Below are positions 35,089 to 50,497 of a stretch of DNA of 64,000 bases, piece by piece; positions within the stretch are counted from its first letter, which is position 1, and every line of letters begins with the position of its first letter. Where the stretch lies: assembly GCA_000310025.1 (NCBI GenBank), contig FN649750.1:952723-1016722 (forward strand), read 5' to 3'. Below the pieces are notes generated by a model. The model made no database searches. It was not told the origin of the DNA and worked only from the letters and a program-made list of their open reading frames with translations. This DNA comes from Ectocarpus siliculosus. Lineage: Eukaryota > Sar > Phaeophyceae > Ectocarpales > Ectocarpaceae. Made by a program: the position numbers and the translations under genes.

Positions 35089-37410
35089 TCACTTCCCTGT
35101 TGCCGGATGTGCACCGGCGTCGTTGAGGTGCCTCCTCGCGTGTTCCTTCTCCTCGGGGGAGCAGTGCCTGGCAAATATCTCCACGATCTTGGCCTTGGTC
35201 ACTGGCTTCGTGACGAACCCGCTCCCCCCCATCTCGGAACACCTCGATATTACGTCGGACTGCACGTTTGCCGAGACGAAGATCACAGGAGTCTCCTTGT
35301 TGCGAGTGCCGGACCTGATCTTCGCGCACGCATCCACCCCGTTCATCACGGGCATGACCATGTCCATGAGAACGAGCGAGTACCTGCCGGCGTCGCACAT
35401 CTGGACCGCCTGGAGGCCGTTGTCACACGTGTCGGCGTCTACACCGACGCTCTTGAGGATCCTCGACAGCACCTTCCTGTTCACGAGCACATCGTCGACC
35501 ACGAGGATCTTCGGGTGGGTCGAGTTTTCTTGGGGCTCCAAGGTTGTAATGGGATCCAGGGCGCACGCGATGGACGAGGCGGAGCTTTCGGTATTTTTTG
35601 CATCGTCTACGGTGGCGTCCGTGTATACTTTCCTGAGCGGTGGCACGGTCCCGCCGGGTTCGGGCGGGGTTTTCGCCTCCACCGTGAAGGTGACGGTGGT
35701 CCCCACCCCTAGGGTGCTAGAGCACACGATCTCTCCCCCCATGAGCCCGCACAGCTGCCTGCAGATGCTCAACCCGAGCCCCGTCCCCCCTACGTCCGTC
35801 CTGGAGTGAACCTGCTTAAAGGCTGTAAAAGCCTCCTTCGCGCTGTCCTGCGTCATGCCGCACCCGGTGTCCTGGACACTTACGCGGATGTAGCGCTTGG
35901 CTCTGGCTCCGGACTCGACTCTGGGCTTGGAATCCCCCTCCTCCACACAAGAGATGGCTGTGGCTCTGGGCCTGGCTCTGGGCCTGGCTCTGGGCTTGAC
36001 GTCCCCCTTCTTGATGCAAGAAACAACTATTTTGATGAAGCCGGCGTCGGTGAACTTCAGGGAGTTGGTCAGCAGGTTGATGAGCACCTGCTGTATCCTG
36101 AACCCGTCCCCAACGATCTTCTCGGGTACCCCGTCCACGAACTCCAGGGCAATCTCCAACTTGATCTTGTTGGACTCGTGCTTCATCCTGTGCGCTATCA
36201 ACGCGTTTTTCACGGTGCTCTTGACAACATCCTGCACCCTGATGGTGTCCTCCCTGATGTCCAGGAGCCCGGCCTCTATCTTGGACATGTCGAGGATATC
36301 GTTGATTAGCGCCATGAGAGTCGCCCCGCACGATGATATGGTCTTCACGTAGTACTTGGACGTGGAGTCAAGGTTCTTCTCCGCCAGGAGCTCCGACATC
36401 CCCAGGATTCCGTTCATGGGCGTCCGGATCTCGTGCGAAATGTCGGCGATGAACCTCGACTTGAGGCTCGAGTACCGCTCGGCCCTAACCCTGGAACCGT
36501 TCATGAGTAGCAGAGTCACGGCCAGGCTGGCAACGATGGCCACGCCGGAGACGAACAGATAGACGAAGAAGTCGCTGTACTCCTGATTGTCGAGCTCCGA
36601 GACAAGGATGTCCATCACGCTCGAGTTGAACCGCATCGAGTTGTCGTCGTCCAGGTCTCTCTGCGGTTCCGAGTCGAAGACCTTGTTGCCGTCCACGAAA
36701 ATCTCTACTTCGGTGCCGGGGAACGTCGACTCCAACTCCGTCACGAAACTTTCGAACAAGGCGTTGTATCTAATTACCATGGCGAGCACTCTATTGTTAG
36801 AAGGCCATGCCCAGCTGGAGATTATGGGGTAGAAGCCCACCCTCCCTAGCTCTCCTGTGTCTGCCAGGACGACATTGTCCAGGAACGTGGCCTCCCCCGA
36901 TTGCACCGCCGTGTCTATCGCGTCCGCCCTGGATTCTTCGGAATTTACCACCAAACCGAGGACGAGTTCATTCCTCGGAAATACGTACTCCACGACGTAG
37001 AGATCGCCCTCCACGTCCCGGTCGGTGATGTATCTCGGGACGATGGTCGTGTTGTACATCCCGCTCAACTCGCTGGCCACGGAGTCTAAGAGGGACGGGT
37101 CTACCCTCCTGATCAGTACCACCTGAGATATTTCTTCCTTGCTCGCCTGCTTGTCGGACAGGGTGTCAAAGTCGTCGGGGTCGGTGACATTGATGAAGCT
37201 CAGGGCGGTCACGAGCTCGGGCGTCGACGACGTCGTCGCGAAGAGAGAGAGGGCTCTCTCTGCGGAGAAACCCGACTCCTCGGAGTAAACCCACTCCTCC
37301 GCCGAGCCGCGGGAGGAGTCCACGAGCCTGGCCAGCAGGAATGAGCACGCGACACCCACCGCGAAGAAGACAAACGACCCTATCGAGCACGCGAGAGAGG
37401 CCTTGTCCAT
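35089..37410 (-). CDS. Intronless membrane hybrid histidine kinase (CHASE-like sensor)
   Basis: A 773-residue two-component sensor: ATP-dependent autophosphorylation on His, then transfer to its own receiver Asp. Order: membrane helix about 7-28; extracytoplasmic sensor about 30-280 with a CHASE-like core (LVLGLVVNSEESRADAI and a GELGRVGFYPI segment); second helix about 281-303; HisKA with H326 in SHEIRTPMNG; HATPase with N449, the DTGCGM box (D514) and GGTGLGL (541-547); receiver from about 634 with D639/D640, phosphoacceptor D683, S713 and K735. All key residues are present, so it is likely active. A 40-residue insertion rich in Lys/Arg/Pro (about 466-506), containing a tandem repeat, splits the ATPase fold. 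The gene has no intron, unlike its neighbours, which suggests retroposition or acquisition; brown-algal phaeoviruses (EsV-1 type) carry hybrid kinases, so a viral source is possible but unproven. The substrate is unknown. Confidence 0.93.
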   Translation of the reverse strand: MDKASLACSIGSFVFFAVGVACSFLLARLVDSSRGSAEEWVYSEESGFSAERALSLFATTSSTPELVTALSFINVTDPDDFDTLSDKQASKEEISQVVLIRRVDPSLLDSVASELSGMYNTTIVPRYITDRDVEGDLYVVEYVFPRNELVLGLVVNSEESRADAIDTAVQSGEATFLDNVVLADTGELGRVGFYPIISSWAWPSNNRVLAMVIRYNALFESFVTELESTFPGTEVEIFVDGNKVFDSEPQRDLDDDNSMRFNSSVMDILVSELDNQEYSDFFVYLFVSGVAIVASLAVTLLLMNGSRVRAERYSSLKSRFIADISHEIRTPMNGILGMSELLAEKNLDSTSKYYVKTISSCGATLMALINDILDMSKIEAGLLDIREDTIRVQDVVKSTVKNALIAHRMKHESNKIKLEIALEFVDGVPEKIVGDGFRIQQVLINLLTNSLKFTDAGFIKIVVSCIKKGDVKPRARPRARPRATAISCVEEGDSKPRVESGARAKRYIRVSVQDTGCGMTQDSAKEAFTAFKQVHSRTDVGGTGLGLSICRQLCGLMGGEIVCSSTLGVGTTVTFTVEAKTPPEPGGTVPPLRKVYTDATVDDAKNTESSASSIACALDPITTLEPQENSTHPKILVVDDVLVNRKVLSRILKSVGVDADTCDNGLQAVQMCDAGRYSLVLMDMVMPVMNGVDACAKIRSGTRNKETPVIFVSANVQSDVISRCSEMGGSGFVTKPVTKAKIVEIFARHCSPEEKEHARRHLNDAGAHPATGK

Positions 37411-38104
37411 GGCGCAGGACCTGTTACTGCAGTAGTAGTGCGTCCGTCTCTGTGAACGTCGACTGACACACAGTCGAATATGACGTCAAGGTGTACAGCA
37501 GCACATGTAGTTCGCGTCTTTGTCGGATGTCAACAAACCGGGTGAGGGAGAGAGAGTGAGAGAGGTCGGTCAAAAAACACACACATACATACGGTCTAAT
37601 CCGAAGGATAGTTTAGCCTCCCCCATGCTGCCCCCTCCCTCACGGGGTCCCCAGTTCATGGCAGATAGAAGTGTTTTGTGTTTTCACCCGCACTAAGACT
37701 GGCGTCTTTTCATTGGCCACCCGGTTAGCGCGGTCGATGCTGATGATATTAAAAATACATACATTCGATCAGCCGGTTTAGCGCGGTCGATGCAAACAAT
37801 AAAAACACATTCGATCCACAGAGAACGCACTCGGTCGGTGCGGTCAAAGTTGTCGGCACCGAAAAAACATTCTGTGTCTTTCGCCGACCTTCGCCGAGGG
37901 TTCTTTTTTGTCACTCATGCCAACTTGATTGTATGCACGCAAAAACTGAAAATGCTGCTGTAGTCGGGAACTCTACAAAATTGAGCCGTGACACAGAACC
38001 AAAACAAGCATTACATTTTTTTCGCGAACCCAAAAAATGATACTCACTCCTGGTAGTTCTGTGTAGGAACAGGAACACAGGGACCATGGGTAGGGATGAA
38101 TTTT
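37411..38104. other. Upstream region of the histidine kinase / left flank of transposon
   Basis: No gene is visible. A diverged direct repeat (TTAGCGCGGTCGATGC near 37725 and 37778, each followed by an A-rich tract and CATTCGATC) could be part of the kinase promoter region, but there is no clear core promoter. Confidence 0.4.
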
Positions 38105-38121
38105 TTAACCCTTACGTGACT
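38105..38121 (+). repeat. Left TTAA site and terminal inverted repeat of the piggyBac-like element
   Basis: TTAACCCTTACGTGACT. It pairs in inverted orientation with 48034-48050, with one mismatch. Confidence 0.88.
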
Positions 38122-38576
38122 ACACCCCCGAATCGGGCATGTTAGCAGGCACGATAACTCTTATATGCGACAACTTTCGAACCGAATTGAGCTGTGGATA
38201 CCTGCGTCGACGACGGCTCGACGGTACGACTAGACCGCTCGAAAAGAAACAAAGTAACGACCGGGGACAGAAACAGCACGTCCCCTATACAGAAAATTGA
38301 AAGCCTGGGAGTTGCAATGCTCCGCAGCACCCTGCATCCCGCGCTGCTGCTGTGCTGCTGTGGACCTCAGTCCAGCACGCAGAAACGCGATAATGATGCT
38401 GTTTTTCCTCCTGCTTGTTGCGATTTTTCGCACGAGCGCTATGGACGGGGTTCCTGTGTATCACGTTCGCAAGGAACAGGAGCTAGCTCCCCAGCCGGCT
38501 GCGTTGGGCCAACGGGTACAGCAGCACATCGATGGATCTGCGTCGCGCATCATTTGCAGCACAGAATTGACAAGAG

Positions 38577-39379
38577 GTGGGAGGGTTATGGTCTTGCCCG
38601 AACCGCGCTGGTGTGTATACCGTAAAGCCGGATGGCCACTGCGGGTTTAGTGCGATGTCCGCGGGTGTGCAGGTTTGCCTCGGTAGAACAAGGGCCGCCC
38701 CCACCCCAGAGAACATGAGGAGCGTGGTCGCCCGTCGAGCCACGGAACATGTTCTTGGCGCATCCGGTGTTGAGGACTTGACAGCTGTACTCTCACCAGA
38801 CCAGCTTGGGCGGGCCCGGAGTGTGCGTATACCGGATGTTTTAGGAGCTGCCGTGGAAGAAATGACGGCGCCGGAGGATAAGACGGTCGGTTGGTTTCGC
38901 GAGAAAGCCCAGCTAAGTGCAACAACAAAATGGATTGACGTGACCTGGTTCTCTTTTCTGGCGTCGGAGTACGGGGTGAACATCATGTTGTGGGAGCCAA
39001 GCCCCACGTACGGCACAGTTCAGCCGTACTCAGCAGCCCTCACGGCAGGCATGTTCTTGTTCGAGAAAAAAGACAAAATGGACGAGGAGGGGGATCGCTG
39101 GGTGCATCTGCTCTATCGGAAACACGACGATCCGTGGGCAGCGCGCGAGGGTGTAGGTGAGGCAGGCCATAAACAGCACAACCACTTCGACCGTCTGCAG
39201 CTTGGACTCAACGTACATACTTCCTTCATCGATGTCGTCAGAGTTGCAAAGGAGAAAGCGCTAGGAATGGCGGCGCCGGTGCCGTCGGCGAGCGCCACGG
39301 CCGGGAAGAAAGCGCCAGGGTCCGCAAAGGTGGACGGAGAAGAGGAGGACGATCCCGAGTTCAGCATGAGACCAAGCGG

Positions 39380-39410
<31 letters not shown>

Positions 39411-39458
39411 CGGCAAGCGGAGGGAAAGGCTGCAGCGGGAAAGAAAAGGTCGGGGTGA
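38577..39458 (+). CDS. OTU-like cysteine protease domain ORF of the transposon
   Basis: OTU proteins are papain-like peptidases, mostly removing ubiquitin. The domain begins with VKPDGHCGFSA, the OTU Asp-Gly-x-Cys signature (D19, nucleophile C22), continues through KWIDVTWFSFLASEYGVNIM (the W...LA...GV.I strand) and reaches HNHFDRL with the likely catalytic H203. After about residue 225 comes a low-complexity Ala/Ser/Lys/Asn tail. The stop is TGA 39456-39458. The next ORF starts in the -1 frame within the same four bases and continues the basic Lys/Gly/Ala composition, so this ORF is probably the N-terminal part of one large transposase protein. Upstream, 38441-38610 in another frame (ALGQRVQQHIDGSAS and onward) looks like the missing N-terminus, shifted at a GTGTGT run. 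Family confident; activity not. Confidence 0.8.
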
Positions 39459-42400
39459 AGCGACCAACCGAGAGGCAGCCAGGGGACAGCAAGAGGCACA
39501 AGGCGGGGGGTGCACCGGGGAAGCAGCGCAAGGCGGTTGGTGTGCCGGGGAAGCGCAAGGCGGGGGGTGCACCAGGGGAGGGGAGGCGTGCCGCAAAGAA
39601 ATGCAAGAGTACGCCGACGGGTAGGAGGAAATCGGTGAAGAGCAACGGCCAAGTAGACGAAGCCAACTATGATTCCGACGGCAGCATCGGGGGGGGGGAC
39701 CACGAGCGAACCCAGGGCTCCTTCGCTAGCATGTCGCAGAACGAGAAGAAGGTGGTGGCCGCCATGAAGAAGATCCAGGAGCTCAAGTACAGGCGGGCGT
39801 ACTTGCTGAGCAACAAGAGGAGGGCGCGGGGTCTAAAGGTGGGTTTGTGTTCGTGTAGACTTTTCTCTTGGCATTTTCCAGGTGAACAGGCGGACCTAAG
39901 AGAAGACGACGATTTATGGTGGTGCAAAAGTTGAGTCCGATAAATAGTGCGAATCAATACTGCTGTAGCAGTTTCTTACGTTTTTTTTTTCGCTTGGAAT
40001 ACCGAGTAGAGAGTGCCCTATCAACGCTGAACAAACGCGTGTCTAGGTAGGCACTTTGTTTCGCCTCGTGTGGTCGCTAGTCTCTACCAAAAATAATCTT
40101 AGAAGTGTTGGTAAAAAGCACCTGGTTGCTTGCATGATCATGTTGACGCCTCCGTGCCTGGCTCCTGTTGCTCAACACGGGTGTGGTTTCCAATGTTGGC
40201 AGGGGGGCAACGAATGTCGAGTTCACGATTCGGAGTATGTAAATGCATGTGCGTGACCTGAACACCCTACTGGCCCTGTATGGTGTTACTTTTGATCGCC
40301 GTGTAAGTTTCACGTGAATCTCTCGCTCGCTCGATTCGTAGGTGTTAGTGACACCGTCGCCTCGTACGACTTTATTTTTTTTCGGATGATTGAACACAAC
40401 ACGGCAGGGTATGAATTGACACAACTGCCGCTCTGTTTCCGCTGTTTGCCGACGACGTGCTCAACCCAGCTCAAGGCCATACGCGACAGGGAGAAGGAGA
40501 GGCTCAAGAAAGCGGCAGAAAAGGAAAAAAAAAAACAGCTTCGGCCGCGGCAGGAGGTGGAGGAGGGGGAGCGACAAGAGAGAGAGGAGCTAGAGAAGCA
40601 GCAGCAGCAGGAGCAGGAGGAGTTGAACGCTGAGGCGGAGGAGGCCCCGGAGGTGGCGTGGACTGACCGCGGCATTCCTGACTTTGCGGGAACGACGGAC
40701 CACAAGAAGAGAACCCGGCGGCAAGCGGTCAGCGCTGCTTCGCTGTCGGCGTCCGCGCGATCGAAGTTGCCCTCTCTCGATACCTTCATGGGCGGCCGCG
40801 ACGAGAACGGAGAGTTCCCGCTGAGTGGTTTGATGAAGACGTGCTTCAACATGATGTTCCCCGACAAGGCAGTAGATCTTTTCGTGCAAAAGGTGAGCAT
40901 TGGTGTTTTCGTGTGGTCGCATTCCTTATTAAGTTGCACTCGAACAACTCACTAGGGGGGTTGCACGCAAGTAAGAGACCGAGCCGTTATGCGTCGGACT
41001 TGAAAGTAGTTCCGCGGGAAGGGGGGGAGGGGGGGGGGCGGGATGAATTGTATGACCTTTGTTGGTGTTTACACTGCATGATGTCGTCTGCATGCCTTGG
41101 TCGCCTAATCATACTGGCCGAATGTAGATCACAGCTCATCAAGATTGTCAAACACACGGGGGTTTATGCGGTGTTCATGCATACTTCCCTCCTGACGTGC
41201 TACGTACCAGCGTATCGTGCAGGGGGTGGTTTGCAAGGGCGGATGCAATACCGCGGAATGTACTCCCTGTAGAGAAGCACCCTCCCCCCCCCCTATCCAG
41301 CGCGCGGGATCCCTGTTATGTATGTTGTAATTTGATTACCGATATCCACCCGACCAACCCAACAATTGAAAGCGGGTACTAGGTAGATGCCTGAGAACAC
41401 AGTCTGTTGTGGCCCCTTGCGGTATTGCTTACGTTCCAAGACACCCGCGGAAGGCGTATGCGGATTAATTTAATCAAACATGTCTGTGCTGCCACGGCTT
41501 GCATCAACAATCATTGTGTATATATACGACACCTCGGCGCGACCTCTAGGGCGAATATGCTAATCTTCGCTCCGTCTTGTTGTCCCTGACCTCTTCCGCG
41601 CGAAACGTGATACTTTTCCAGGACAACAAGTACGTGAACCTTTGCACCACACCACCACCCCCCGGAGCTACGGAGAAGCGCAAGGAGCATCAGATGAAGA
41701 AGACGAGAACTCTAGGCAGGGTCACCCTGCCGGAACCCGCATTCGAGCGCAAGCACATCTACGGCATGCTGGGCATCACGATCACGATGGGGCTCACCAA
41801 GAAAACGCGCATGAGGAAGCACTGGAGTAGATCGTTGCACGACGACTATCCTCTAGTGAGGGCGTGCATGCCGCGTGACTTGTTCGAGCTGTTGTACTGC
41901 CGTTTCATCCACTGCTCGGACGGCAACGCTCCTCCTCGATTGTTGGACGAGGACAACACCCCTAACCCGGACTTCGATTCGAAGTGGCACATCAGGTGAG
42001 TTTTACCCGTCGGAGACTTCGAGCGTTCTGACTGTTGGACCACGCTCCTCCATTTTTTCATGTGGTGAAATAAAACGGCCTCCAAGCCGGCGAGTACCCT
42101 AGAATCCAAACCCAAAGGGTTCATGTCGTTGTACCTGTCGTTGCCCTACACCACCCGCCCTCCCCGTGGAATACTACACGTGACCACTACAGTAGCGTAC
42201 AGTTGTACACCACCCGCCCTCCCCGTGGAATACTACACGTGACCACTACAGTAGCGTACGGTTGGGATGATCATAGCTACGGACTAGCGTGGTTGGTGTG
42301 TGTAATCAATAGGCGAGCATTCGTATGTCCGTTCGTGTCCCACGAATGTTCTACAACAGATTAACCAACGCCACACCTCCGTGCTAATCTTGACGTCGCT

Positions 42401-44587
42401 TCACCGGCAGAGAGCTCGAAGACATCTTGAACACCGCGTGGACGGAAAACATGGACTTCAACCAGTGGCTGTGCTACGACGAGCAGATGGTGAAGACTGT
42501 GTCGAGGTACGCGCACTTCCTCATGAGACACCAGCCCAAGAAGCCCATCACCCACGGTACGCGGTTTGTGTTTCGTGTTGTATGGACGATTCCTGCCGAA
42601 TGTGTGTTTTCCTTGTGACGGCCTTGCGGTGTGAGGGCTCGGCGGCTGGGGACATGGGCGAAGACCTTGCATAGTATTCGGTTTTCAAGGGCCACCATGT
42701 GGTGGAGTTGTCATTTTTGCTTTGTGGAGTTGACCCCCCCCCCCTCTCCCTCTACTGGGAAAATAGGAGCAGGAACATTTGGCGTTTAGGTCACATGAAG
42801 AAATCATGCCCGTGGGCATAATCCAAAGCTCGATTGCTACACAGAGCTCGGCGGTGCCGAAAATGGCGGAGCTGGAACCGTCAATGACTGTCCACGAGTT
42901 TCAAGCGGCAAACTCGAATAGAGTGCAAACGGGCACGATTGACTGCTGCGCCGCCTTGTTAATTCGCTCCACCATTTTTCCCTATTCACGTTGTTCCAAT
43001 GCAGGCGTGAAGATGCTCGCGATCTGCGACGTCGCGGGGTACTGTTTCGTCAGCAGCGTCGAGGGTGGATTTTCGGGGGATCCCAAGCTGAGGAAGTGGT
43101 CTGACTGCCCTCTGGGACGGACCACTCGGCACGTTCTACATGTCCTGCTCGACGCCTGCAAGGAGTTCGGTGACAAAATCGACGGCTCTGGCGTGCACAT
43201 CGCAATGGACAACTACTTCACAAGCCCGACACTGTTCGAGTGTCTTGCGGCCCACGACATCTTCGCGGTGGGAACGTGCCGGGTTAACCGAACCGCTGGC
43301 GCGATCCCTTTCTTGCAGAGCCTCGATCGCATCCCCGTCAAGCGGGGAGACATGCACTTCGCCCGCGCCGGCAATGTCGCATTCGTGCAGTGGCTCGACT
43401 CGAAGGATATCATCCTGTGCAGCACCATCCACCTCGCGCAACCTCGCGCCGCCATCGGCCAGCCCAAGAAGGAAGACGACGACGGCGGCGACGACCATTT
43501 CGCACCTCTACCTTACAGGTGACCTTTTTTGTTGTTGTTGACCAGATTCATGTTTTTATTTCTGCGTCTTCATGTCGGATGCCTCGCTCGAGTAGCATGT
43601 CGGTCAAACTGGTTCGTGCAAAGGTTGATGGAGTTCAAAGTTTGGTGTTGCCAAAATGCAGCGGCTCGGGTTCATGCCTTTAGTATTCGGTTCGTCACAC
43701 AGGCTGTTCTCACCGACCGGGAACGTGCTTGGGGCTTGAGCATTGTAGTGTTGACAGGGGCTGATGCTACGCCGGGGTAAAAATAGGTTGCTACGTCCGA
43801 CGACCTCCATCCAGTTCGTCGTCGCCGCAGCCGCAAGTGTGGTGCCTGACCCATGTGTTCCGCCTGCCCCCCGCCTGCCTGCCCCTTTTCGTGCGTGTCC
43901 AGCCTGCGCAAAGCTGGGCAGAAGGGGAAACCCATGGAGCTACAGCAGCCGTGGATGCGTAAGGATTACGTGGCCAACATGGGGGGAGTAGATACGGCCG
44001 ACCAACAGAATGGTTCCCACGCCCATGACCACAAGGCGTGCACGAACTACTGGCGGCGAGTGATGGAGGCCAAGATTGAGCAGACGTTCACCAACATTTT
44101 CGTGATGTTCAAGGCTTTGGTAGCCTTCTGGGACGGTGAAGCGAAGGAGAGGCTCGAGAGAGGAGACCTAGACCTTGAGTCGTCGATGGAGTTGGAGGGA
44201 GTGGTGAAGGAGCTCCGCAGGTTGGCCAATCTTGAGAGGTCGGACTGGGACGAACAGATGTCGACGGAGCTCATGGGGAGGTGCGGTGTTGGTAGCCTCA
44301 ACAAGGGGGGGAGACAGGTCAAAGATACGGAACCCCCGAAGGACGTTTGGGGGAGCGTTCACATTAAGACAAAACGCAAGTGCATGTACCCCGGATGCAA
44401 GAAAACGACAAGAAAAGGGTGTGCCTGCGAGGCGTTCTGCGGTGCAGGGCGGGAGGGGGGCGGGGGGGTTTTGATGTGCAAGGGATGCTTCGAGAACCCG
44501 GCGAGGCACGCTAGGGCCGCACGGGCTGAACGGCAGGCCTCGAAGTTCGGAAAAAGGACACGGAAGGATATGAACTGGTGCTCGTGA
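39455..44587 (+). CDS. piggyBac-type transposase (DDE_Tnp_1_7), six exons
   Basis: It would cut and paste the element at TTAA. Exons with matching phases: 39455-39838, 40470-40892, 41622-41995, 42411-42556, 43005-43518, 43903-44587 (TGA), about 841 residues from 39455. Exons 1-2: basic linker and a long charged coiled-coil (RERE/KEKK/QQQE). Exon 3: N-terminal transposase fold (RKHIYGMLGITITMGL, CMPRDLFELLYCRFIH). Catalytic candidates: Asp of YDEQM (42478-42480), Asp of MDNYFTS (43208-43210) and Asp of GGVDTADQ (43991-43993), corresponding to D268, D346 and D447 of the cabbage looper enzyme. The C-terminus has a Cys-rich cross-brace-like finger (CMYPGC, CACEAFC, CKGC), typical of the family. 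There is no credible independent ATG: the GTG at 39455 overlaps the OTU stop, which suggests a fused or recoded product. Five introns are unusual for piggyBac. Confidence 0.9.
42147..42264. repeat. 59-bp tandem duplication in a transposase intron
   Basis: TACACCACCCGCCCTCCCCG begins at 42147 and again at 42206, followed both times by TGGAATACTACACGTGACCA and CTACAGTAGCGTAC. Only a base or two differ, so the duplication is recent. Confidence 0.9.
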
Positions 44588-45854
44588 CCGTTTTTTGTTG
44601 TTGTTGCGAGTGTTTCGGGCGGAGGAAACAGGGATCGACTCGTGTAAGGGTCCCTTGACATATTTTTTGGCAGGCAGACTGATCGTAGCGCATCATCTTC
44701 CCGTCCGTCATGAAAATGTTTTACTCCGTCGTTTACCTGTTGTGTCTTCCCGATAGCAGTGGTATTATAGTGTGGGGCGTTTGTGTTGTGTACTTGTTTA
44801 CCACCCATCTGTATCATGTAGCGGTCGAAGTACGATCGTTTTCATCCTTGCGAGATAAAGTGCAAGTTACTGAATCACAATATTGTAGGTCTTTTATTCC
44901 GCGCTATTTCTGAAAGCGTGTGTCTTTAGAGTCTGAAGCGTCCTCCGGGATATGCGGTGAAGAGTGCTTGTCGGGCAACTGTTGGTGGGCGCCGGCGGTG
45001 TCACCTGCGGTAGTGAGTTTTTAGCCCCCCCCCCTTTAGCCCCCATTCGCTTGTGACTACTGTCAGTGTTGTTGCGATTAGCCACGGCTCGTGTATCGCT
45101 CGTTGTGTGTCGTTTTTAACCCGAAACCTATGTGGCAAGAGCCTTAGGTTTGGCGTCGGTATCCCGTGCTTTGGTCGACAGACATGTTCGCACGTAGACA
45201 AGGAATGGAGTACGAAGTGTACAAGGTTTGCAGATACCAAGGTTTGCAGATAAAATCGAAAGAAGTCTTCGGCATCTAGATAAACAACGTTTTCCTGGCA
45301 CTTTAGTTTTTTCACTGCGTGCGGTGTAGTCTAGTCCTTTCGTGCGACAACGTCATACACACCACGTGCCGGTGGTGCTCACCAGTAGTTCAGAAACCGC
45401 AAACGGCATCGGAATCCAACCGTGTGCCAATGACAGACATTCCGGAAACCTTCATGCGATCAAGTCGTGAATACTTGCAAGATCATTTGTTCCATGTTTA
45501 TTCCATTTCTTCATCTCGAAACCAAGGCGCTGATCTCTGCGAAAATGCAATACACATCTCCCGGCGAGTGCGCCTGCAACATGCGACGAAACATACGGAA
45601 TTTTCAGATCACACCATTGCACCATCGGTTGTTCCACCGAGTTGTGCCTTGCAGCACTCTTTCTCCAAATAACCCCAGCGAATTGAACGACAAACCCAGC
45701 GAAACTCAAAGTCATGCGGGGGCACGACGCCCTGCAAACTAGCCGAGCGCAAACCTTGAGGGTCTGCTCGAAACTCTTGTAAGTACGAAACCCTCTCCAC
45801 CCCCCCACCCCACCCCTCAGGCTCCATGATCAGCCTAAAACACGCGCTCGAGAA
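44588..45854. other. Spacer inside the transposon between convergent genes
   Basis: 3' flanks of the transposase (+) and of the minus-strand passenger gene. No coding exon was recognised; open frames are short and compositionally random. Confidence 0.5.
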
Positions 45855-47090
45855 TCACGACAATGCCTCCGCAATGGCCGCTGGTATGGCTTCGTCTCCC
45901 GGCCACACCGCGCGGCACGCCTGCGTGAAGCAGTCCCTCCTCGTGATTTGAACGCCACGACCCCTCGCGTTGAGGCGGGTGCTCACGTCGAACGAAGCCT
46001 GCACGTTGCGGGGGAAAAAACGACGACGTAGGCTTGTTTTTTTAGAGCGTGCACTCCAGTCTTTCGTGGGAAAATGGAGAGCCAACAAACGTTACGTGGC
46101 ATGCAGTATCTGTGAGAGACAGACGTTCACGCAATGGGGCGGCGCGTGCGTCTTTTTCTCCGTTCGGACTACTAACCGCCCGTTCGGATTACAAAACCTA
46201 ACTTCGGACAAGACAGAAAATTATGCTCGGCCTCCCCAGTACATCGTTACCCCTACTGCTGTCTAATGCGGGGAGTACAAAGCTGCGGGCTGCCAGCCTA
46301 TTCGTACGAAATGGGAGAGTCTCCAACCTAACTGATACGGAAGATAACACCATATCTGTCTCAAAAGGGGAGTCGACGCGCTGGGCGCCGCTTGTCTTTC
46401 CAGAGCATTTGCTGAGCATTGCGGAGGTTCATAGGGATAGGGTTGCTGTAAACGCGTCTTTCAGGTCTCTCATCCCTCTTTCCTGTCTACTTCGTGTGGT
46501 GATATGATCTGTCTGGCAGCTGCTTGATCCGCAGGCTCGAAAAACACACGCACGTTAGTCCAGGTTGAAGTTTGTGGGCCTAGTGTACTGTTGTAGCACT
46601 CTTACAAGCCACCATGTCAAACAAAGCTGAACGTGAAGCACACCTATAATACACGAGGTGCAACGCGCACAGCAGGTGCACAACCGATCTGGGTCAGCAG
46701 CCCATCATTTGTGGGGTTGCCGAATATCAATTGTACTATACTTACTTGATTCCTCAGACGCTTCGCTGTGACCTGCCCCCCCGAGCTCCTCTCGGCTGCC
46801 TTTGCGAAATCTACATCCCCGATCCAGCGGGAGTGGTGGTACCCGCAGAGTCCGGGGTGCTGCTGAGCTGCGGTCCTCCTTATGTCTGGGAGGGGCTGGG
46901 GCTCGTTGTCCCCGTGGCAGCAGAACCGCTTCCCAACCGCCCTGGCTGCAGCAGATGTCGCCTCGGGCAGGAGCTGGGGTGTTGTGTCCGCGATGAGAAC
47001 CAGCTCGTCCCACACAACTAGGGGAGCATTCACTGGGTCCCACTCAGCCGCTTTGGCCTCCCAGAACTGAGCGATGTCCTCTGGGTCCAT
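45855..47090 (-). CDS. Two-exon passenger gene of the transposon, function unknown (162 aa)
   Basis: Exon 1 runs from ATG 47090 to 46746 (donor CAA|GTAAGT), exon 2 from 45998 (acceptor GTGCAG) to TGA at 45855; the phase is 0 at both. The protein begins MDPEDIAQFWEAKAAEWDPV, has an Ala-rich helical part, a short Cys/His segment (RFCCHGDNEP, CGYHHSRW) and ends with a compact helical piece containing RRDCFTQACRAVWPGDEA. I do not recognise a family; the Cys/His residues do not make a clear zinc finger. It lies wholly within the inverted repeats and is transcribed towards the transposase. It may be an accessory factor of the element, a captured host gene, or part of a longer gene with exons I missed. 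Confidence 0.6.
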
Positions 47091-48033
47091 GGTGGTGATG
47101 TTGGTACTGCTGTACTGCTGTTGTTGCTGCTGTTGTGCTGGCAGGCTGTGGCGGAGTGACAAAGTGGCAAAAAGAGACACCCGCCCCCGTGCCTTCGCGT
47201 TTTTGAGAGGGTTTTCGTGACTACAGGCACGATAGGAGGCATGATAAAACCTGTCTTTATCTGGCACGATAAAGCATGCTCTCGCTGTTGACTTGTGTGC
47301 CTTCTTCCTTGCCTTCGGAATGTGGTTGCAGAACTGAAGGCCAAGCTTACGAGGCCTCTCCCCGAGTTCTCCTGCGCGAGTGTGTGTTCGAGTGTATTCC
47401 TTGTCCGTCTTCAACCAACCGCCACCACAAGGCATAGTTTATCTCTCGCGCGGCTCGTGCTTGCTGCTGCTGCTGCGGCGGGCTGCTGCTGCTGCTGCTG
47501 GTGCTTTTTCATTTCGTTTCGCATGCATGCATCCAACAAACAAACCGCGTGCGTGTGTGCTTCTTGTCTCCGCTGGATTTACCACCCAACCAAGTGGCAT
47601 TAGAGGCGGTGCCATGCCTTGCGCCAGTGTGCTGCATCGGCGGCGGGGTAGAACTGCTGTGCATGCGATGTATCTCTACTGCTGCTGCTGTATCCATGTA
47701 GACTATCACCATGTAATCGTGTTTGGGGTAAAGAAATACGGTGCCCTCTCCTCTCTCTCTCCTCCGGTTTCCGACAGCACCTACATACAGCAGTACAGCA
47801 GTCAGTGTAGTTATCGGTCACTCATCACATTCTTCACGTGAGGGTTACGCTGCTGTTGGGCACTAAACCTTTGTGGCACCATGGGGTGCGTGCGGTTGAC
47901 CCATGTGGGAACCTGTTGGTGCGCAAACGTGCAAACGTTCAAGTGCGGGTGTCGTGTGTGTGTGTCTCATGACTCATCGGTCTATTCGGTCCCGGCAGAA
48001 CAAAAAAAAACGCGGAAGATCCAGAAAGAACCC

Positions 48034-48050
48034 AGTCACGAAAGGGTTAA
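48034..48050 (-). repeat. Right TTAA site and terminal inverted repeat of the piggyBac-like element
   Basis: On the minus strand it reads TTAACCCTTTCGTGACT, matching the left end at 16 of 17 positions. The plus strand shows AGTCACGAAAGGGTTAA. Confidence 0.88.
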
Positions 48051-50497
48051 AAGCGGCGCCTCTGATTGGCCCAAACCACCGCATTTGAACGAAGCTGATT
48101 GGGAGTTTAAAAGCGGGTTTTAAAAGCGGCACTTGGGATTTGTACGGGAGGAGTTGTAGAGACTGCGCACGCGTGCATTCTACTGAGAACCAGAGTAGTG
48201 TTTACACATTGATAGTATATCTTTAGGACTGACGCGTTCTGATTGGTCGGGCGTTGTTCGGCGTTGGTTCTGGCGGCCGATTCCTCTCCAGCGCCCTCTC
48301 CCCGTTCCGCATTCCGAGCGCGCGGCGCAGCCGCGTGCCGCCCAGTTCGCGGCCGCTAGGCCGTGCTTTGGCCGTGGGCGAGGGTTAGGGTAGATGTGGG
48401 GTGAGCAACCTAGCCTTGCTCGCGTGAAGAACCTAGCCTTGCTACGTTCAACATCGGTTAGTACTAAAGAGTTACTATCAATCAAGTGTAACCAAGGCTC
48501 ACCAACGTGCGCGCCGGCAGCACTGCACAGCACACAACACGTGCTTGCCGGCGTATGTATGTCGCGTGGACAGATGCCGCGACGTGGTGAGATGCCAAGC
48601 AACGCCCCGCATGAAACCACCTGGGGCTGGGCTGCTACTGCGGCGGCGTGAACCTCCTGCTTGAAGCAAACAACCTCAACATCAACCAGAGCGCCGGTTG
48701 TGTGTTGGCGTCATCATCATGATGACCACGAAGCAACGGACATGGGATAAGGGCGTGGCGGCGACGGCTGGCTGTGTAACACAAGTTGCTGAGCACTGGC
48801 GGCGGTTAAGCTAGGAGGAGAGGCAGAGGTAGCAGCGGTCACCCCGTTTCGGCTTTTCCAGGTGAATATGTTGGTGCTACAAGCAGGTGTACAGCAACAG
48901 CAGTGAGTTGCAGCGCTTTAGCCTTCGTGGGGTGTATCGTGTGCGTTCCTCTCTGTACGCTGCTTAGCACCCCATTGATGTGACGGCTGCTGCTGTACTG
49001 CTGTAGTGTGCGTACATAACGGGCACCGAACGTTTCTTCATTGACAGATCAGCAGGTGCTATCCTGCAACGTCGTCACGCAGTCAATCGGTCTTTTCTCG
49101 CAAGCAGTTCACCACAGCGCAGCAACTTTACAGCAGTGTAGCAGATAGAGTCGATGACCGTCAGCAGTGCCGGCCCGCTCGTAAGAGCTTGGGCGAGGTT
49201 AAGCACCTTGCCGCAGCCATGTGAGCTGTTTATCAGAACAACAGATAGAGTTCTGTTGTTAGAGTTCATGCCCACCCCCTTTGAACACGAAGCTTTCATC
49301 CCAGTATGTCTAGTCTACCTCAGAAGAAGGCGTTAGAAGACCGTCTGCAAGCACCTTACAGTAGGTTACCGTTCCCAAATGAGAACTCACCCGATCTATC
49401 GTATGCATATTTATCCTCATCCTCGGTCGCTGTTTCAAACGTTGAGAATCCGCGCATGTTTCCGTGCCGGGGTGCCGCTCATCGCAGCCGTCGATCCGCT
49501 CGGTCAACGCCTATTCTCCCACGGATGATTTCGCCTCGTCTACACTGCTCGCATCTAGAGGCAACGTTACGCAAATAGTCCTTTGATGGGGCGTCAATGC
49601 CACGCCGTATGCATACATCGTCGTACATGTGGCTGTTCAGGGCAGCCACCTGATTGATCTGCCCCAACAACCACCCCCGAACCGAGCCTCAAGAACATAC
49701 AAACAACCAAATACAAAGCGCAACCTAGCTCGTGAGGGGGGGACCTCCGAAGACGAAATCCGTCCGGAAGCTGCATCGCCGCATGTATCAAGCTGTGACT
49801 AGGGGTCAAAGGCCGTTTCTTCCCACGTCCAACCTCAAATCCTTTCTTTTGTAGCAACTGTATCCACGCGGTCCCTTCCGAGGAACTGGAGATCTGTGAA
49901 GGTCTGCTTGCTGTACATCGGCAACCTGGTCGTGGTTCTTCTTTTTTGTCGTCAACGTTCAATTGCAACCTTCAGCAGTATGTAGCGGGTTGTTTGTTCT
50001 TTCCTGTACCGCAGTTTTATGTACATAGCGCGAGCGTAATTCCTACTTGGACAGCAGTAGTTTCAGGGTTTTATCATCGGTAACCCTCGTTGAGGCGGAC
50101 ACAGGGTGCAGGCTTGTATCGTAGTAAATACGTGGTACATCGTTGAGGCGGGTCAATGCACTTGCTGACGTTTTCCCTCGTGTATGTTCTTCGTGCCCCT
50201 TTCCTCCTCTTGCTCCATCCGTACATCAGGTAGACTCGCTCAGCATCCTAACGGCACCGCGGCGCTGGCGGGAAGCCGGCCGCGACTCGAGCTTCACTGG
50301 ACAAGCCGGTTCATCTTTAGGTGGGTCATATGCATAGAGTAGCAACAGGGGGTTTCGTGCAGTCCAGATTGTGATACAACTGCTACGGATGAGCGTGATA
50401 TTGTGAGGGATACACTTGCGTGTGTGCTGCTGGGAGCGACATTTGTGCTACTCAAGTATTTGTAGAGTTTCTGCATTTTTGTTTACGACGCATATCG

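Follow-up and report, generated by a model that had tools for sequence, protein, structure and literature searches.

A young piggyBac transposon of Ectocarpus siliculosus with a probable OTU-like domain-transposase fusion and a convergent second gene

Ordinary piggyBac elements are a few kb long and contain one gene, and piggyBac is widely used as a gene-delivery tool. A locus in the genome of Ectocarpus siliculosus raises the question of whether members of this superfamily can be organized differently. In a stretch of 64,000 nucleotides (contig FN649750.1, positions 952,723 to 1,016,722; hereafter the window), an open reading frame (ORF) for an OTU-like domain, an intron-rich transposase gene, and a gene on the opposite strand are all enclosed by inverted ends that carry TTAA. 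The explanation proposed here, to which a probability of roughly 0.7 is assigned, is a young, two-gene piggyBac DNA transposon. The first would encode a fused chain of OTU-like domain, basic linker, and DDD transposase, and the second, convergent on it, a Cys/His protein of 162 amino acids. In window positions, the limits of the element are:

38105..48050, no strand: whole element; ends common to the copies, and eight empty sites with a single TTAA in paralogous repeats
38105..38121, + strand: left terminal inverted repeat of 17 bp, in which the TTAA target-site duplicate comes first; differs from the right end at one base
48034..48050, - strand: right terminal inverted repeat, ending in the second TTAA; empty sites with one TTAA

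This segment is one structurally complete element of the piggyBac superfamily, which extends from TTAA to TTAA over 9,946 bp. Its ends are TTAACCCTTACGTGACT and, inverted, TTAACCCTTTCGTGACT, just as they had been described by a reading of the letters made without database searches (the sequence-only reading). After TTAA, the short inverted ends start with CCC (TTAACCCTTWCGTGACT), as is typical of the superfamily. When the window flanks are joined over one TTAA, they match 13 other loci of the host genome (189 Mb, 492 contigs) across the junction with 77-94% identity. A single TTAA stands at the insertion point (...TTTT-TTAA-AAGCGG...) in all eight uninterrupted repeats fetched, which are paralogous repeat copies and not excision products, and their breakpoints coincide exactly with 38105 and 48050; no others were found among them. 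Six of the 11 copies read (the window, C162, C21, C456, C53, and C57) retain TTAA at both ends, and in the remaining five one end carries a mutation, is truncated, lies in N, or is past the contig end. Because the eight empty sites hold a single TTAA, the element inserted at TTAA with target duplication, and the mobile unit includes the second gene as well as the OTU-like ORF. The earlier claim of one element of about 9.9 kb is borne out by these sites and by the common ends of the copies. The target itself (window 38070-38104 and 48051-48200; L060-L067) is a repeat of ~170 bp or more that is uninterrupted at the 13 other loci. The short left flank of C162 resembles this repeat and the right one does not.

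Further copies, for which the sequence-only reading had proposed to look, exist in the host genome: ten others were read (C3, C162, C27, C14, C21, C456, C11, C66, C53, and C57), and an 18-base end pattern has 125 matches versus 0 for the reversed control. On the left, the copies start to match at window positions 38104-38107, except for C162, whose match reaches 42 bp into the flank (38063); on the right, the matches stop at 48039-48051 where the end is readable. Since substitutions between the window copy and the ten others amount to 0.40-1.36%, the family is young and multi-copy and has moved recently. All 11 copies read contain the OTU-like ORF, and all 10 with a readable right part (the window and nine others) contain the opposite-strand gene; boundaries that exclude either gene were found in none of them. 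Among the matches listed (100 of the 125 places), 14 inward-facing end pairings fall within 12 kb, and seven of these, including the window copy (9,946), span 9,880-10,112 bp. The seven shorter pairings with the same ends among the matches listed (1,081-5,446 bp) are possibly non-autonomous relatives, one of which (C12:1703040-1708485) retains OTU sequence.

The first gene comprises six exons, derived from open frames and splice sites:

38441..39838, + strand: exon 1, with the OTU-like domain, a basic and Q/S-rich linker, and the conserved tail YDSDGSIG...KRRARGLK; one open frame in six of ten other copies
38631..38642, + strand: D-G-H-C, putative catalytic Cys motif in the OTU-like domain; D-G-x-C in aligned rows
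39180..39191, + strand: N-H-F-D, proposed catalytic His; His in six of the eight rows reaching it
39839..40469, + strand: intron 1, phase 0, between the OTU exon and the transposase exons; GT-AG in the window, ten copies, and sister C184
40470..40892, + strand: exon 2, charged/coiled N-terminal part of the transposase; splice sites
41622..41995, + strand: exon 3, N-terminal part of PF13843; PF13843 match, splice sites
42411..42556, + strand: exon 4, first Asp motif (42478); splice sites, whole-protein PF13843 match
43005..43518, + strand: exon 5, second Asp motif (43208); PF13843 match, splice sites
43903..44587, + strand: exon 6, third Asp motif (43991), Cys-rich C terminus, and stop codon; splice sites, PF13843 match

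Across 12 sequences (the window, its ten copies, and sister C184), every one of the 60 acceptors is AG, and GT is found at 59 of the 60 donors, the exception being a GA at intron 2 of C456. Intron 3 of the window contains a tandem 59-bp direct repeat (42147-42264; 98%). Spliced exons 2-6 of the window are open and encode 713 amino acids, which match PF13843 (DDE_Tnp_1_7) at 6.4e-33 over positions 4-347 of the 349-position profile. The piggyBac transposase recognized by the sequence-only reading is thus present, with its three Asp motifs in conserved exons (YDEQM, MDNYF, and GVDTADQ) and its Cys-rich tail. These Asp residues are presumably the catalytic triad, and the tail presumably is a finger. 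The ratio of nonsynonymous to synonymous substitution rates (dN/dS) of exons 3-5 is 0.25-0.37 where computable. In C162, C57, C53, C66, C11, and C3, exon 1 is a single open frame of 504-565 amino acids, in which the OTU-like domain is followed by the basic linker and the tail (YDSDGSIG...KKIQELKYRRAYLLSNKRRARGLK) and then by a phase-0 splice into exon 2. The start Met of this exon (38441) was chosen because the annotated protein P0005 begins at the matching place. A hydrophobic stretch before the OTU domain (MMLFFLLLVAIF..., in the exons of C162, C472, and C16) was considered as a candidate signal peptide, but it is translated pyrimidine-rich DNA. Because this DNA ends in AG immediately ahead of the Met with which P0005 begins, a leader-intron acceptor is likelier.

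Convergent on this gene is the second one, which has two exons and encodes 162 amino acids:

46746..47090, - strand: exon 1 (MDPEDIAQFW..., with C-x2-H and C-G-x-H-H); GT donor in all 11 rows
45855..45998, - strand: exon 2 (NARGRGVQ...CFTQACRAVW, stop); AG acceptor in all 11 rows

The opposite-strand passenger of the sequence-only reading is therefore a real gene, but the ORF listed for it (46644-47438) consists mostly of leader and intron. Exon 1 has amino acid identities of 68% in C184 and 42% in C16, which represent other lineages, and exon 2 has 57, 53, and 37% in C234, C16b, and C183, respectively. Two proteins, P0011 (Ectocarpus sp. CCAP 1310/34, 168 amino acids, 52% over 99%) and P0014 (37% over 99%), cover both exons. 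The named organisms among the homologues retrieved with the transposase and with this protein are Ectocarpus, Pylaiella, and Hapterophycus. The dN/dS of the gene is 0.11-0.32 where computable, with 0.23 for exon 1 against C184. In the host genome, 52 matches merge to 45 loci, and at least 28 of these are convergent to a transposase anchor; this and the other anchor-based counts are lower bounds, as the anchors entered are 39 places and not all. Because the two-exon gene is conserved across lineages, it is a component of the element and not a one-off capture. The protein has no Pfam family match and no convincing fold in structure comparison, and its clustered Cys and His residues (RFCCHG, LCGYHH) suggest a metal site. 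Further relatives (41-52% over the conserved stretch) lie without an entered anchor nearby at C33:1324447, C33:1326571, C10:2567724, C107:50461, C24:2863421, C53:16444, C399:9691, and C11:3621958. These may belong to more distant elements or be genes that stand alone.

The N-terminal domain of the first gene product was compared with OTU proteases. D-G-x-C is found in all eight aligned rows that reach the site, and in a profile alignment D-G-H-C falls on the DGNC/DGAC of host OTU domains; N-H-F is found in six of the eight rows reaching its site, and two rows lack the His. The profile score against host OTU domains is 30.4, which is reached by 0 of 100 column shuffles (best 18.5), and it becomes 31.8 when C183 is added (0 of 200 shuffles; best 20.6). 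In a structural comparison with weak matches, OTU proteases rank first to fourth and sixth among the 12 rows shown, and a low-confidence structure model places a helix (68-80) directly after C67. The domain has 43 matches in the host genome, which merge to 33 loci. At least 26 of these are followed by a transposase anchor on the same strand, and at least 21 have the convergent second gene as well. Four of the six transposase lineages examined carry the domain, namely the window family, C472/C184 (~61% on the amino acid level), C16/C122/C187 (33-36%), and C183 (profile E 1.1e-8), whose transposase is 40-47% identical. It was not detected in C16b and C7, where the best profile matches are not significant (E 0.18 and 0.63) and the domain may be lost or too diverged, nor was it found in the single copy C234, although the near kin C16, C122, and C187 have it. 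In a FastTree phylogeny of the transposase core, which was built from pieced-together matches and has some weak inner nodes (0.33), C183 clusters with P0008, C16b, and C7; the remaining OTU carriers are in the other part. The domain thus looks ancestral with losses, and a later gain is possible.

Are the OTU-like domain and the transposase made as one chain? The search with the transposase protein retrieved seven proteins. One of them, P0005 (Pylaiella littoralis, 1157 amino acids), starts with the OTU-like domain and continues with the YDSDGSIG tail and the transposase, and another, P0003 (EukProt, 979 amino acids), starts within the second half of the OTU-like domain and continues in the same way. 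Fusion, which the sequence-only reading had offered alongside simple precedence, is favoured over adjacency because of the uninterrupted exon-1 frame in six of ten copies, the phase-0 GT-AG junction, and these two annotated fusion proteins. The latter are predicted proteins that support a fused product and do not prove it, as gene predictors can join neighbours. Separate proteins from neighbouring genes of the element would also agree with the single match of the exon-1 protein search, P0002 in ENA, which is the exon itself (505 amino acids) running into intron 1. However, no stop precedes the donor in the exon-1 frame of the six copies or of the C16 lineage (603 amino acids), the phase-0 junction is conserved, and two separate annotations join the parts at the same conserved block. 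Separate products are therefore rather improbable.

Several cautions apply to the proposed explanation. Exon 1 of the window is frameshifted and spread over three frame segments (38258-38650, 38571-39458, and 39173-39934), so that the sequence-only reading's term "intact" holds for the structure of the element but not for its OTU exon. None of the 11 copies read has all exons open; each has a lesion and the lesions differ, although some may be assembly errors at homopolymers. For the OTU-like domain, PF02338 gives no match at E<=10, and the domain is hence named OTU-like and not a Pfam OTU member; the OTU signature residues seen earlier stand as the D-G-x-C and N-H-F motifs, but Pfam does not call the domain. 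The label is based on these motifs, the shuffled-profile test, and the weak structural matches. Moreover, the proposed catalytic His is a Tyr in L041 and is absent in P0005. Together with the weak constraint on the OTU part (dN/dS 0.38-0.65 where computable), the lost His and the missing Pfam match would suit a domain of OTU or other papain-like protease descent that is no longer an enzyme and has a ubiquitin-binding or structural N-terminal role. This is unlikely, though a serious contender, since D-G-x-C (8/8 rows) and N-H-F (6/8) persist in lineages with ~34% domain identity. Transposons do capture genes, and a host OTU gene might have been taken up once by the family as passive cargo; the host has other OTU genes, as its 25 PF02338 matches illustrate. 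Yet none of these 25 places coincides with the 33 transposon OTU loci, and four lineages have the domain in the same position, fused to the transposase, which makes cargo very improbable. Finally, insertion of one element into another is common among the giant transposons of Ectocarpus, as noted in the portion of PMC12477816 consulted, and a nested insertion or a chimera of unrelated elements could mimic one unit. Such an origin is scarcely credible in view of 11 copies with a common layout and outer ends, a gene order common to sister lineages, and clean empty sites.

Just upstream of the element, the window contains an ORF of 798 amino acids with CHASE, HisKA, HATPase, and response-regulator domains (35089-37485, - strand).

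The preferred explanation, a two-gene piggyBac element with a fused transposase, has partial counterparts among known systems. With the piggyBac superfamily (PF13843) the element shares the TTAA duplication, the CCC ends, a full-length transposase domain, the three Asp motifs, and the Cys-rich tail, but it differs in its size of 9.9 kb, its six exons, the N-terminal OTU-like domain, and the conserved convergent second gene. According to the part of PMC2836005 consulted, OTU or Ulp1 domains are attached to transposon proteins of Ginger1, Helitrons, and Mutator, and its authors proposed a ubiquitin/repair role for the OTU or Ulp1 protease domain on the DDE transposase of Ginger1. This combination of protease domain and DDE transposase resembles the window element, whereas Ginger1 is described there with a Gypsy-integrase-like transposase and a C-terminal protease; the window transposase matches PF13843 only and has its OTU-like domain at the N terminus, which places it outside Ginger1. 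Helitrons and Helentrons with OTU, from the same part of PMC2836005, are likewise transposon proteins with an OTU domain, and the same genome has examples of this known type that served as comparators: L047 (1-1917) and L046 are ORFs for Helitron-like Pif1 helicases that have OTU at the C terminus (PF02338 1.6e-6 in L047). They differ in their Pif1-type helicase protein, in having OTU on the C-terminal side, and in the very distant relationship of the host examples to the window domain.

For Ectocarpus itself, the portion of PMC12477816 consulted describes Harbinger elements with two tail-to-tail genes and an opposite-strand accessory gene in Sola1-1_Ec32. The likeness of these and the giant Ectocarpus transposons to the window element is in the layout of accessory genes; they belong to other superfamilies, and no relation of the 162-amino-acid protein to theirs was found, although no test aimed at it was made. 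The same survey counts four PiggyBac families with 1,588 copies and, as it also mentions further domain gains and accessory genes on the opposite strand in host transposons, the window element is in keeping with its surroundings. The terms "OTU" and "deubiquit" are absent from the main text of PMC12477816, whose supplements and figures might describe these families. Searches of the piggyBac, OTU/transposase, and Ectocarpus and brown-algal transposon literature did not find an OTU-piggyBac fusion, in line with the sequence-only reading, which knew of no described piggyBac lineage with this layout. OTU domains are already known on DDE transposases (Ginger1) and in Helitrons; a piggyBac with OTU appears to be new, as these searches found no earlier report.

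How might such an element work? The product of the first gene would be one chain that starts with an OTU-like cysteine-protease domain and continues through a basic linker into the piggyBac DDD transposase; the OTU-like domain could remove ubiquitin, or a relative of it, in cis at the transpososome. The substrate might be the transposase itself, which would then live longer. Alternatively, ubiquitin might be removed from chromatin or repair proteins at the cut site, and this would assist safe excision and TTAA repair. The second-gene protein would act as an accessory factor that binds DNA or has a regulatory role. The domain is more likely to protect the transposase or the repair of the TTAA gap than to be passive cargo, because it seems to be built into the transposase and is kept in four lineages. 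A broader and more tentative proposal, for which the odds are slightly below even, is a brown-algal piggyBac clade (with transposases down to 40-47% identity) that has an N-terminal active deubiquitinase and a dedicated partner, so that ubiquitin control would be part of the transposition machine. A further, apparently independent attachment of such a protease domain, here to an unrelated DDE transposase and at its other end, would point to a repeated advantage of removing ubiquitin or a relative for DNA transposons. A natural piggyBac that combines a regulatory protease with a partner protein would also raise the question of whether ubiquitin limits transposase lifetime or TTAA repair, and the window family offers a young, multi-copy example in a tractable algal group.

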